DNA from: Pseudoxanthomonas sp. GM95
GTDB taxonomy: Bacteria > Pseudomonadota > Gammaproteobacteria > Xanthomonadales > Xanthomonadaceae
DNA length: 64,000 nt
Direction: 5' to 3'
Assembly: GCF_900109775.1 (NCBI RefSeq)
Contig: NZ_FOAX01000002.1
Span: 310,001 to 374,000 of the forward strand
In this document: one piece after another, positions 31,511 to 40,175 of the stretch
How positions within the stretch are numbered: position 1 is the stretch's first letter
Layout of the letters: every line of letters begins with the position of its first letter
The notes under the pieces: generated by a model
Database searches by the model: none
The model's input: only the letters and a program-made list of their open reading frames with translations
What the model was told of the DNA's origin: nothing
Position numbers and translations under genes: made by a program

Positions 31511-31538
31511 TTGCAATCAAGGGCGTGGCTGCTATCGT
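31511..31538 (+). promoter_or_regulatory. Candidate promoter of the plus-strand glycoside operon
   Basis: TTGCAA at 31511-31516 and TATCGT at 31533-31538 with a 16-bp spacer. Each matches consensus at four of six bases. The palindromic operator begins at the last base of the -10 box, a position where a bound repressor would block open-complex formation. Confidence 0.35.
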
Positions 31539-31551
31539 GCAATCGATTGCA
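31538..31551. promoter_or_regulatory. LacI-family operator, site 1
   Basis: Perfect 14-bp palindrome TGCAATCGATTGCA with the central CG typical of LacI/GalR operators. The identical palindrome recurs at 40161-40174 beside the lacI-type gene. These are the only two copies I found in the window, one at the outer end of each operon of the locus. Confidence 0.72.
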
Positions 31552-31741
31552 TGGGCGCGGCTCATGTAGGTCGCATCCGGTTGGGAGGCCGGTGAATGGC
31601 ACGACTCGATCACACGTCGATTTGCCGCAGCGGGCTTGCACCGCACGCCGCCTTTTGTTTTTTCGCCGGCTTTAAAACCTTTAAATCGCGCGGTGCCTGC
31701 GTTGCGCACGCGTTGTGTCGTGCAGCCCGAGGCTTATCCGC

Positions 31742-32614
31742 ATGACCGATCGACCGACTCGGCGCGATGTCCTGCGCGCCGCGCTGCTGGGGAGTGCGGG
31801 CTTGGCCGCCTCCAGTCTGTTGCCTGCATTCGCCAAGACCGCGTCCACGCCCAAAGGTCACCTCAAGCAATCGGTCGCGCGCTGGATCTTCGACAACCAG
31901 TCCATCGACCAGCTATGCAAGACGGTCAAGCAGCTCGGGCTGTCGGCCATCGACCTGGTCGGGCCCGAAGACTGGCCGACGCTGAAGGCCAATGGCCTCT
32001 ACAGCTCGATGTGCAACGGCGCCGAGATCAGCCTGACCAAGGGCTTTGCCGCCACCGAATTCCATGACGAATTGATCGCGCGCTACACGCGCCACATCGA
32101 TCTGGTTGCCGATGCCGGCTATCGCAACCTGATCTGCTTTTCAGGCAATCGCAATGGCATGGATCCCGAGGACGGCCTGAAGCATTCCGAAGCCGGCTTG
32201 AAGCGCCTGCTCGGCCACGCCGAGAAGCGCGGCGTGGTGCTGGTGATGGAGCTGCTGAACTCCCGGGTCGATCACCCCGACTATCTGTGCGACCACTCCG
32301 CGTGGGGCGTCGAGCTGTGCAAGCGGATTGGTTCACCCAATTTCGGCCTGCTGTTCGACATCTATCACATGCAGATCATGGAAGGCGACATCATCGCCAG
32401 CATCAGGAAGCACCATGAGTATTTCGTTCACTACCACACCGCAGGCGTCCCCGGACGGCATGAAATCGGCGCTGACCAGGAATTGAATTACCCGGCGATC
32501 TGTCGCGCGATCCGCGCGTCGGGATTCGACGGCTACCTGGCGCATGAGTTCAGCGCCGTGGCGTCCGATCCGATTGACGCGGTCCGCGAGGCGATCCGCC
32601 TCTGCGATGTCTGA
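31742..32614 (+). CDS. Tat-exported sugar isomerase-like TIM-barrel protein
   Basis: 290 residues from the ATG at 31742. A twin-arginine signal (RRDVLRAALLGSAG, ending LPAFA) predicts folded export to the periplasm, and the ATG is chosen because it leaves this signal whole. The body is an AP-endonuclease/xylose-isomerase-like TIM barrel closest in look to hydroxypyruvate isomerase (Hyi). Likely metal ligands are Glu in VLVMELLNS, Asp/His in LLFDIYHMQ, the His of GVPGRHE and the Glu of LAHEF. It heads the plus-strand operon, 33 bp before the GMC gene. Related proteins occur with 3-keto-glycoside pathways, where they may epimerise, isomerise or hydrate keto-sugars. The reaction here is inferred, not shown. 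Confidence 0.82.
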   Translation: MTDRPTRRDVLRAALLGSAGLAASSLLPAFAKTASTPKGHLKQSVARWIFDNQSIDQLCKTVKQLGLSAIDLVGPEDWPTLKANGLYSSMCNGAEISLTKGFAATEFHDELIARYTRHIDLVADAGYRNLICFSGNRNGMDPEDGLKHSEAGLKRLLGHAEKRGVVLVMELLNSRVDHPDYLCDHSAWGVELCKRIGSPNFGLLFDIYHMQIMEGDIIASIRKHHEYFVHYHTAGVPGRHEIGADQELNYPAICRAIRASGFDGYLAHEFSAVASDPIDAVREAIRLCDV

Positions 32615-32647
32615 AACACCCGCACATCCACCCAGGGACATCTCCCC

Positions 32648-37832: not shown

Positions 37833-39050
37833 TCAATGCGTCGAAGCCGCTGTTTGCGCCGCGGGCTTGTCGCGGAACAGCAGCAGGAAGGCGACCAGCA
37901 CCACGAACGCCACACCCGCCGGGAACAGCCAGATGTGCTGCCAGTCCGGGCCAGCGGCGGTGGTGTAGTGCTCCACGACCGCGCCAGACAGGAAGGTGCC
38001 GATCAACATGCCCACGCCATAGGTGGCCAGGGTGATGAAGCCCTGGGCGCTGCTGCGGAACGCCGGGCCGGCGTGCGCGTCGGTGTAGATCTGGCCAGTG
38101 ACGAAGAAGAAGTCGTAGCAGATGCCGTGCAGCACGATGCCCAGCACGAGCAGGGCGAAGCCGCCGCCCGCATCGCCATAGGCGAACAGCACATAGCGCA
38201 GCACCCACGCCGCCATGCCCAGCGCCAGCATCGCCTTGACGCCCAATCGCGCGAACAGGAACGGCATGGCCAGCATCAGCAGCACTTCGGACACCTGGCC
38301 CAGCGACTGCAGGCCGGCGGCGCCGCGCACGCCCAGGTCGTTGAGATAGGGGTTGGTGAAGTTGTAGTAGAACGACAGCGGGATGCAGATCGCGATCGAG
38401 GCCAGGAAGAACACCAGGTAGGCGCGCGACTTCAGCAGCCGCAGCGCGTCCAGGCCCAGGATCTGGCCGAGCTTGGCATTGCGCTGCTGCTCCAGCGGCG
38501 GCGTGTGCGGCAGGGTGAGTGCGTACAGGCCGAGCACCAGCGAGGCACCGGCGGCCATGCGGAAGGTGAGTTCCAGGCGATGCGCCTGTTCCCAGCCCAG
38601 CCAGCCGATCAGCACGCCAGCGATGATCCAGCCGATGCTGCCGGCCACGCGCACCGGCGGGAACTGCTTCTCGGGCACCTGCATGTGGCGCATCGCAATG
38701 CTGTTGGCCAGCCCCAGGGTCGGCATGAACAACAGCATGTAGCCCATCACGCAGGCGGCGAAGGTATCGAAGGTCGTGGCGACCGAGGCGCCCCACATCA
38801 GCACCGCGCCGGCCAGGTGCAGCACCGCCAGGATGCGCTGCGCGGCGAAGTAGCGGTCGGCGATCAGCCCGACCAGGAACGGCGCGACGATCGCACCGAT
38901 CGACTGGCTCAGGAAGGCCGTTGCCACCTGGCCGGCACTGGCCTGCAGCGGCCCCTGGACCAGGTACGTGCCCAGGGTGACGAACCACGCCCCCCAGATG
39001 AAGAACTGCAGGAACATCATCGCGCCCAGGCGCGACAGGGTGGACGTCAT
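37833..39050 (-). CDS. MFS transporter, nucleoside:H+ symporter-like
   Basis: 405 residues with twelve predicted helices. The start MFLQFFIWGAWFVTLGTYL and the GYMLLFMPTLGLANSIAMRH stretch are characteristic of the NupG/XapB nucleoside:proton symporter family. Many members in sugar-catabolic loci take up mono- or disaccharides instead. Here it probably imports the keto-sugar or monosaccharide released in the periplasm. It lies between the cytosolic TIM-barrel gene and the Gfo/Idh gene on the same strand. No TonB-dependent receptor is encoded nearby. Confidence 0.83.
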   Translation of the reverse strand: MTSTLSRLGAMMFLQFFIWGAWFVTLGTYLVQGPLQASAGQVATAFLSQSIGAIVAPFLVGLIADRYFAAQRILAVLHLAGAVLMWGASVATTFDTFAACVMGYMLLFMPTLGLANSIAMRHMQVPEKQFPPVRVAGSIGWIIAGVLIGWLGWEQAHRLELTFRMAAGASLVLGLYALTLPHTPPLEQQRNAKLGQILGLDALRLLKSRAYLVFFLASIAICIPLSFYYNFTNPYLNDLGVRGAAGLQSLGQVSEVLLMLAMPFLFARLGVKAMLALGMAAWVLRYVLFAYGDAGGGFALLVLGIVLHGICYDFFFVTGQIYTDAHAGPAFRSSAQGFITLATYGVGMLIGTFLSGAVVEHYTTAAGPDWQHIWLFPAGVAFVVLVAFLLLFRDKPAAQTAASTH

Positions 39051-39092
39051 GACTTCCCCTCCCAGGTCAGTGTTGAATCAGGCCAATGTGCG

Positions 39093-40145
39093 TCAGAGGC
39101 CCAGCAGGCCGCGCAGGGCGTCCGGGCTGGCGCCGCTGCCGGCGAAATCGTCGAAGGCGTGTTCGGTCACGCGGATGATGTGGTCGCGGATGAAGGCCGC
39201 GCCTTCGCGCGCGCCGTCCTCCGGATGCTTCAGGCAGCACTCCCATTCCAGTACCGCCCAGCCGGGGAAGTCGTACTGGGCGAACTTGGAGAAGATGGCT
39301 TTGAAGTCCACCTGACCATCGCCGAGCGAGCGGAAGCGGCCCGGGCGATCGATCCAGTTCTCGTAGCCGCCATACACGCCGCTGCGCGCACTGGGGCGGT
39401 ACTCGGCGTCCTTGACGTGGAAGATGCCAATGCGCGCGTGATAGCGGTCAATGAAGCCCAGGTAGTCCATCTGCTGCAGCAGCAGGTGGCTGGGGTCGTA
39501 GAGGATCTTGGCGCGCGGATGCTGGTCGACCACATCGAGAAAGCGCTCGAACGTCGCGCCGTCGTGCAGGTCCTCGCCCGGATGGATCTCGTAGCACAGG
39601 TCCACGCCGCACTCGTCAAACACATCGAGGATCGGGCGCCAGCGGCGGCCGAGTTCGGCGAAGGCTTCGTCCACCAGGCCAGCCGGGCGCTGCGGCCACG
39701 GATAGAAGTACGGCCACGCCAGCGCCCCGGAGAAGGTGGCGTGTGCGGTCAGGCCCAGGCGCTGGCTGGCCTTGGCGGCCAGCTTGACCTGCTCGACCGC
39801 CCAGGCCTGGCGCGCGGCCGGATTGCCGCGCTTGTCCTGCGGGGCGAAGCCATCGAACAACGTGTCGTACGCCGGGTGCACCGCCACCAGCTGGCCCTGC
39901 AGGTGCGTGGACAACTCGGTGATCTGCACGCCGTGCTTGTCCAGCATCGCGGCGATGTCGTCGCAATACGCCTGGCTCTGCGCGGCTTGTTCGAGGTCGA
40001 ACAGCTGCGGTGCGCTGGTGGGGATCTGCAGGCCGCGATAGCCCAGCCCGGCGGCCCATTGCGCCAGCGTGTCCAGCCGATCGAAGGGAGGCGTGTCACC
40101 GATGAACTGCGCCAGGAACAGCGCGGGACCCTTGAGCGTTTTCAT
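39093..40145 (-). CDS. Cytosolic sugar phosphate isomerase/epimerase-like protein
   Basis: 350 residues from the ATG at 40145 (MKTLKGPALFLAQFIGD), with no signal peptide. TIM-barrel fold with probable metal ligands Glu in VDLCYEIHPGEDL, Asp/His in ILYDPSHLLLQ, His in IGIFHVKDAEY and Glu in GWAVLEWECC. The C-terminal extension carries the CLKHPEDGAREGAAFI segment typical of a sugar isomerase subgroup found with Gfo/Idh dehydrogenases. It is the first gene of the minus-strand operon, and the operator lies 15-30 bp upstream of its ATG. Its substrate is probably the imported keto-sugar. Confidence 0.84.
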   Translation of the reverse strand: MKTLKGPALFLAQFIGDTPPFDRLDTLAQWAAGLGYRGLQIPTSAPQLFDLEQAAQSQAYCDDIAAMLDKHGVQITELSTHLQGQLVAVHPAYDTLFDGFAPQDKRGNPAARQAWAVEQVKLAAKASQRLGLTAHATFSGALAWPYFYPWPQRPAGLVDEAFAELGRRWRPILDVFDECGVDLCYEIHPGEDLHDGATFERFLDVVDQHPRAKILYDPSHLLLQQMDYLGFIDRYHARIGIFHVKDAEYRPSARSGVYGGYENWIDRPGRFRSLGDGQVDFKAIFSKFAQYDFPGWAVLEWECCLKHPEDGAREGAAFIRDHIIRVTEHAFDDFAGSGASPDALRGLLGL

Positions 40146-40159
40146 GCCAATCCGACTTG

Positions 40160-40175
40160 ATGCAATCGATTGCAT
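40160..40175. promoter_or_regulatory. LacI-family operator, site 2
   Basis: 16-bp perfect palindrome containing TGCAATCGATTGCA, identical in its 14-bp core to site 1. It lies 15 bp upstream of the minus-strand operon start codon and 64 bp upstream of the lacI-type ATG. A repressor here could control both the operon and its own gene. A weaker repeat, CGTTG-2-CAACG at 40204-40215, lies closer to the repressor gene. Confidence 0.75.

Follow-up and report, generated by a model that had tools for sequence, protein, structure and literature searches.

Even palindromes with a central CG are common as operators of LacI-family regulators (1173/1303), and 72% of the regulators are autoregulated, according to the main text of a survey of the family (PMC4052901). 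In Xanthomonas campestris, SuxR was shown experimentally to repress the sux genes (PMC1790865). The GlycDH operon of Agrobacterium (PMC10628242) and the levoglucosan pathway (PMC7676230) both follow a logic of oxidation, elimination, hydration and reduction, and a dehydrogenase is combined with a DUF1080 enzyme in lactose use, where the DUF1080 enzymes BT2157 and those of Caulobacter have been described (PMC9007349). Here, we analyze a 64,000-nucleotide stretch of Pseudoxanthomonas sp. GM95 (contig NZ_FOAX01000002.1, positions 310,001 to 374,000; hereafter the window), in which two convergent operons of predicted sugar genes carry the same 14-bp palindrome, TGCAATCGATTGCA, at their outer ends, one copy standing beside a divergent lacI-type gene. 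Both palindromes are very likely the operators of one local, autoregulated LacI-family repressor, the product of this gene.

The two exact copies of TGCAATCGATTGCA are spaced 8,623 bp apart (operators 1 and 2, Table 1), and both are perfect 14-bp palindromes with a central CG, as an earlier sequence-only reading of the window had claimed. Its further claim that the window holds no third copy was upheld even with up to three mismatches allowed; that scan alone is not significant, because shuffled sequence gives a mean of 3.5 matches at the same tolerance. The genome search with two mismatches that it had proposed covered 4,689,370 bases in nine contigs and yielded exact copies only at these two places, no one-mismatch copy and six two-mismatch copies, all six inside open frames of at least 80 codons, which means little in a G+C-rich genome. 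Under an order-2 model derived from the window, 0.00025 exact copies are expected per 64 kb and 0.018 per 4.69 Mb, and the exact repeat is significant against this expectation. The window contains 15 perfect 14-bp palindromes, representing 14 distinct sequences; TGCAATCGATTGCA is the only one present twice, and the other 13 differ from each other.

The lacI-type gene and the sites travel together among relatives. Of 38 genomes of the genus, 16 encode this LacI (called at E<=1e-100), and each of the 16 has at least two exact sites, with three in genome G002 and two on different contigs in G023. Exact sites were found in 0/22 genus genomes that lack this LacI, six of which (G003, G004, G008, G009, G013 and G030) hold one-mismatch copies. 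Across a family set of 297 genomes, LacI was called in 45 at a threshold of E<=1e-130; TKCAATCGATTGMA was matched in 45/45, and at least twice in 41, while the remaining four (G204, G236, G277 and G296) carry a one-mismatch version at the far site, which lies upstream of TIM1, the first gene of the plus-strand operon. The family genomes without this LacI match TKCAATCGATTGMA in 22/252 cases. A third comparison used 71 named loci with LacI orthologues that are 80-87% identical, from Stenotrophomonas, Xanthomonas, Pseudoxanthomonas, Lysobacter and Luteimonas, together with two records still named Pseudomonas. A site is conserved on the lacI side in 71/71 of these loci (60 TGCAATCGATTGCA, 9 TGCAATCGATTGAA and 2 TTCAATCGATTGAA) and at the far end in 58/58 of those with TIM1 in the fetched flank (48 TGCAATCGATTGCA, 7 TGCAATCGATTGAA, 2 TTCAATCGATTGAA and 1 CGCAATCGATTGCA), so that sites stand upstream of both the target operons and the regulator gene. 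TIM1 was out of view in the other 13 loci owing to longer spacing, contig ends or, in locus L053, a plus operon that is missing or lies at a greater distance. Nine distant LacI relatives (L079-L081 and L083-L088, 33-48% identical) were excluded from these counts; they have no operon pair, and L081 and L083 each show a two-mismatch copy about 7 kb from their own LacI along with weak Gfo/Idh matches.

One-mismatch copies elsewhere in the genus take varied positions. One of them, TGCAATCGATTGCT in G034 (L113:3001, C1), lies between a large frame and a divergent frame, which we take to be TonB-receptor-like and GH30-resembling, and is a possible extra target; an identical copy is found in G035.

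Variation in the operators coincides with variation in the protein. At 11 named Xanthomonas loci, the sites seen are AA-ended (TGCAATCGATTGAA or TTCAATCGATTGAA), and all 11 regulators read VTAG instead of VSAG, a serine-to-threonine replacement at the start of the LacI recognition helix; two other Xanthomonas records (L017 and L036) retain both VSAG and TGCA ends. In an 86-row LacI tree, a single change suffices for the altered type (22 rows), with clade support of 100/93, where at least four of the 22 rows duplicate a named genome, the bootstrap is not fully settled, and G145 and G294 are left out. One evolutionary change altered LacI and, wherever both ends are in view, both operators.

The placement of the sites is consistent with repression. 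Operator 1 lies 190 bp upstream of the TIM1 start codon. From operator 2, the distance is 15 bp to the likely ATG (40145) of the leading minus-strand gene and 65 bp to that of lacI, which is transcribed the opposite way from the same short gap; a longer automatic reading frame that starts at 40175 and runs through the palindrome is probably wrong. Conservation in aligned relatives peaks at both operators (Table 1), a contrast with the flanks that is somewhat flattered, as the rows (window included) were selected for a site-like match; the locus and genome counts above are the fairer test. Statements on promoters are based on the recurrence of boxes in this alignment. At operator 1, a CTTGCA block and a TATGG or TATCG block recur in most of 30 non-redundant rows (window included), the spacing between putative -35 and -10 boxes, read by eye in three rows, being 16 in the window and 18 in L009 and L010; the final T of the putative -10 in the window is the first base of the operator. 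At operator 2, TGCTAGGAT or TGCTAGGGT is present in 23/24 non-redundant rows (window included) as a -10-like box on the minus strand, which stops 2 bases short of the palindrome in the window and 0-4 bases short in other rows. Since -10-like boxes adjoin the sites, an autoregulated repressor that blocks the promoters is the likely mode of control.

Two further features were noted near the operators. A TGCACAAC block at 40204-40214, upstream of the minus-operon -10 on the minus strand, was seen by eye in 20/24 aligned rows; it is too far from the -10 for a -35 and is possibly the site of a second regulator. Between operator 1 and TIM1 begins a 49-codon frame (31596-31745), preceded by a favorable ribosome site (GGGAGG at 31583) and closed by a stop codon that shares bases with the TIM1 start (ATGA). 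Such an overlap was found in 8/8 picked loci (window, L025, L035, L042, L044, L060, L068 and L076; ATGA in seven, GTGA in one), differs or is absent in L065, L067, L070 and L094 of the same group, and is replaced at most Stenotrophomonas and Xanthomonas loci by a corresponding ribosome site that begins TIM1 directly. A conserved leader peptide was rejected, since differences among the eight loci show no codon-position bias (488/381/447 at positions 1/2/3); the frame may instead be a displaced start retained through translational coupling.

In the mechanism we propose, a LacI dimer would cover the presumed transcription start of the plus operon at 31538 and that of the minus operon at 40161, and the second site, falling also within the short upstream region of the divergent lacI, would confer autoregulation. 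Without inducer, the protein would act as a repressor, rather than an activator, and block RNA polymerase at both starts. A sugar indicative of the substrate or of an early pathway product would release it, so that the oxidation and cleavage genes of the plus operon and the uptake, hydration and reduction genes of the minus operon would be made together, with both transcripts meeting at a shared terminator. The two sites would work as separate operators, for which a loop is not needed.

Several points weigh against assigning both sites to this repressor. The co-occurrence counts take no account of shared ancestry, and the shift of recognition helix and operators is a single event and hence one data point, which counts as one supporting observation because it happened once. 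A generic sigma-70 promoter scan returned no promoter in the region, and neither a -35 at operator 2 nor the lacI promoter was identified. Most directly, TGCAATCGATTGCA is also found in other genera at sux-type loci beside another LacI-family gene, and for this reason its binder cannot be read from the sequence alone. The sequence-only reading had placed both operons under one regulator. Co-occurrence, conservation and coordinated change bear out one LacI-family regulator for the two convergent operons, each with an operator at its outer end. A point that this reading had not anticipated is that the palindrome is not private to this regulator in general.

The sux-type loci were considered in detail; the sux gene names used here are presumed ones, in line with the paper on SuxR (PMC1790865). 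Fifteen of the 22 family genomes that match TKCAATCGATTGMA without this LacI have the match at such loci. At nine (L118-L123, L125, L128 and L130), a LacI gene 30-34% identical to the one studied here lies about 1.7-2.3 kb away, among neighbors of TonB-receptor, transporter or GH13 type as read by eye from the frames, a reading with which Pfam agreed on samples from L118, L122 and L125; the recognition helix is VSES or VAES in the eight readable proteins of these nine. At six others (L157-L162), the palindrome is directly upstream of suxC, mostly with a TonB-receptor-like frame on the opposite side, and G221, among these six, holds a further copy, TTCAATCGATTGCA, at another place in its genome. 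As for the other seven genomes, G208 has its match at another LacI/TonB-type locus, frame reading revealed no evident sugar genes in G104, G164, G214 and G298, and G113 and G149 were outside that reading.

Genomes were scored sux-positive by a suxC match at E<=1e-130. At the sux-type locus L118 the transporter is instead of the sodium:solute symporter type, and a sux-type locus may thus go uncounted in some suxC-negative genomes, as the search covered suxC alone. SuxC was found in 31/297 genomes, 13 of which also have this LacI. Within these 13, the operators of the 3-keto-sugar locus are AA-ended at one or both half-sites in 11, and TGCA is kept in G275 and G294. AA-ended sites occur in 0/32 genomes that have this LacI and lack a suxC match. 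Two exact sites are present in 28 of these; the other four combine an exact site with a far site in which one end is changed to CGCA, TGCG (twice) or TGTA. At the sux loci read (30/31), paired palindrome-like sites stand 86-101 bp apart, mostly T(A/G)CAATCGATTG(C/T)A and, in one genus, often of CAAACGATTG type. Exact TGCAATCGATTGCA is present at sux loci of 6/17 genomes without this LacI and 1/13 with it.

The strongest rival would assign the sites in the window to another regulator, such as a SuxR-type sucrose repressor, and treat the neighboring LacI as incidental. In its favor, SuxR is an experimentally established repressor in X. campestris (PMC1790865), sux-type loci in other genera bear the identical palindrome, and in Pseudoxanthomonas G002 an exact site is found at both loci. 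This genome, however, has no close SuxR, its best match being 40% identical to the G002 protein and 37% identical to the L118 protein, nor any suxC match at E<=1e-130; TGCAATCGATTGCA here is confined to the one locus, with one evident reader. The LacI of the window is itself not a likely SuxR orthologue, as it is 30-35% identical to the sux-locus proteins, and no TonB receptor or GH13 enzyme was present among the locus genes scanned by Pfam. Within the genus, moreover, it is this LacI that exact sites accompany; proteins 38-47% identical to the sux-type protein of G002 are found in genomes both with and without sites, and it is with the recognition helix of this LacI that the sites change. We therefore regard control by a SuxR-type repressor as improbable.

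In G002, the third exact copy (L110, C19, position 4999) stands between sugar-transporter-like and TonB-receptor-like frames, at a sux-type locus with its own LacI, for which reason it was not counted as an extra target of the LacI studied here. Two repressors may share sites within one cell in this strain. More broadly, it is possible, though we put it forward only tentatively, that two non-orthologous repressors, the 3-keto LacI and SuxR, read nearly the same palindrome, often an identical one, and that the Xanthomonas shift to TTCAATCGATTGAA or TGCAATCGATTGAA represents operator insulation or, conversely, that sucrose uptake and 3-keto-sugar breakdown are cross-controlled where the sites are identical (G275 and G002). 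The AA-ended shift where both loci meet suggests that two repressors with a common core are insulated from each other; this pattern follows one clade, and the difference on the sux side is small.

The sequence-only reading had also raised the possibility of looping over about 8.6 kb, whereby a repressor tetramer, or dimers with a bridging protein, would join the two sites. A strong site at each end wherever both ends are in view (58/58 named loci) would fit such an arrangement, and yet each site by itself is positioned to block a promoter. In E. coli LacI, an extra C-terminal part makes tetramers. The 334-residue regulator of the window has the LacI helix-turn-helix and a periplasmic-binding-protein-like sensor domain, and its alignment with the 360-residue E. 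coli LacI extends no further than residue 332, the C-terminal extension being absent, so a looping system of the E. coli type was rejected. The spacing between operators also drifts, from 8,662-9,154 bp among the 58 named loci for which it was measured to about 11-14 kb (maximum about 13.9 kb) in genus genomes G011, G026, G034 and G035, with extra frames in the middle of the locus in two of them. With the extension missing and the spacing drifting, looping was set aside as unsupported and is most improbable. Least credible, to the point of being negligible, is that the repeat arose by chance or as a non-regulatory palindrome such as a recombination or methylation motif: the window does hold 15 perfect palindromes of this length, but TGCAATCGATTGCA alone among them repeats, the genome has two exact copies in place of the many unlinked ones such an origin would require, and conservation in many relatives is focused on the sites.

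Table 1. Features of the convergent operons, their regulator and the candidate control sites, in window coordinates
Feature	Position	Strand	Basis
Putative promoter of operon 1	31511-31538	+	TTGCAA, 16 bp, TATCGT
Operator 1	31538-31551	none	TGCAATCGATTGCA; 98% mean conservation vs 60-69% in flanks
TIM1, TIM-barrel sugar isomerase/epimerase-like (AP_endonuc_2), Tat-like signal by eye	31742-32614	+	Pfam
GMC flavoprotein, probable glycoside 3-dehydrogenase catalytic subunit	32648-34333	+	Pfam GMC_oxred_N/C; PDB fructose/glucose dehydrogenase chains
Gluconate_2-dh3 small subunit of dehydrogenase	34333-34917	+	Pfam
3-Keto-disaccharide hydrolase family (DUF1080), signal peptide by eye	34937-35698	+	Pfam PF06439; PDB 4qhz, E 5e-71
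Bidirectional terminator between operons, A6-GCGGCGCCC-ATC-GGGCGCCGC-T5	35740-35771	none	Sequence and fold
TIM2, TIM-barrel, signal peptide by eye, putative pathway role	35795-36655	-	Pfam; PDB 8bvk
Gfo/Idh/MocA oxidoreductase, probable 3-keto-sugar reductase	36697-37821	-	Pfam; PDB 4h3v, 6a3f
Nucleoside:H+ symporter-type MFS importer	37833-39050	-	Pfam PF03825, E 1e-118
TIM3, probable 2-hydroxy-3-keto-glucal hydratase	39093-40145	-	Full-length PDB match 8ro4, E 7e-182
Operator 2, between minus operon and lacI	40161-40174	none	TGCAATCGATTGCA; 99% mean conservation vs 48-64% in flanks
Extended -10-like box of minus operon, TGCTAGGAT	40177-40185	-	Sequence; 2 bp upstream of operator 2
LacI-family repressor, 334 aa	40240-41244	+	Pfam PF00356 (HTH) and PF13377 (sensor domain); PDB matches

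The genes under the proposed control include all the families of a 3-keto-glycoside route, namely dehydrogenase, lyase/hydrolase, hydratase and reductase, and the operons probably encode an oxidation-elimination-hydration-reduction route through 3-keto sugars. TIM3 matches 8ro4, a solved 2-hydroxy-3-keto-glucal hydratase, over its whole length. The 3-position specificity of the GMC flavoprotein is probable from its gene context. Weak PDB matches of TIM1 include the 3-keto-D-glucoside 4-epimerase 6wn6; TIM2 matches 8bvk, labeled a xylose isomerase, at E 3e-95 and, more weakly, 8tct, 8tcd and 8tcs. Levoglucosan dehydrogenase is the best curated model for the Gfo/Idh/MocA protein, with a score below the model cut-off. 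The division of labor would be roughly between extracytoplasmic oxidation and cleavage (plus operon) and uptake, hydration and reduction (minus operon), with compartments, activities and substrate all predicted; TIM2, which has a signal peptide although it is on the minus strand, is an exception to this split. The terminator hairpin between the operons folds with -28 kcal/mol (z -4.2; 1/200 shuffles equally stable), and a consensus terminator scan gave no entry for it.

Additional genes were noted in some relatives. Luteimonas loci L135 (7421-9684), L041, L046, L056, L072, L073 and L075 carry an extra pair of GMC dehydrogenase and DUF1080 genes, 26-34% identical to the plus-operon counterparts, on the strand of the minus operon and adjoining TIM2. 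At the convergent junction of G026 (L115:7387-12411) lies a stretch of about 5 kb whose frames, one of them 1177 codons long, have lower third-position G+C. Downstream of lacI in the window, a 2896-codon frame (43177-51867) presumably resembles the cyclic beta-glucan synthase NdvB; it is probably not part of the system, because its first 600 residues had no match listed in the relatives' loci searched.

Overall, the system is, with good support, to be regarded as a conserved and fairly ordinary switch of a known kind, of which this member was not found described: a literature search, outside which lay most subscription papers, supplements and regulon databases, found no account of this regulon, the 14-mer or a SuxR binding site, and the main text of the LacI-family survey contains no mention of Xanthomonas or Stenotrophomonas (PMC4052901). 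It would provide a clean, testable regulon for the breakdown of glycosides without ordinary hydrolysis in Stenotrophomonas, Xanthomonas, Pseudoxanthomonas, Lysobacter and Luteimonas, and its operator could be used to find the inducer and hence the natural substrate. The sharing of this operator with sux loci also makes it a natural setting in which to study how paralogous repressors escape cross-talk or make use of it. Like the local regulons of the survey (PMC4052901), it combines an even palindrome with a central CG, a regulator beside its targets and a site between divergent regulator and operon; it differs in having two convergent operons with identical operators at their outer ends. With the sux locus (PMC1790865) it shares its bacterial family, a repressor of LacI type acting on sugar genes, and palindromes similar or identical to those of the suxA-suxC intergenic region, whereas at the sux locus the recognition helix has SES in place of SAG, the LacI proteins are about 30-35% identical to this one, the sites are paired 86-101 bp apart, and the genes are for sucrose uptake with a TonB receptor. 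As in the Agrobacterium, levoglucosan and DUF1080 pathways, a dehydrogenase, a TIM-barrel lyase/hydratase and a Gfo/Idh/MocA reductase are clustered; in contrast to those pathways, the genes of the window are divided over two convergent operons and are joined by a DUF1080 enzyme, two further TIM-barrel proteins and an MFS importer.

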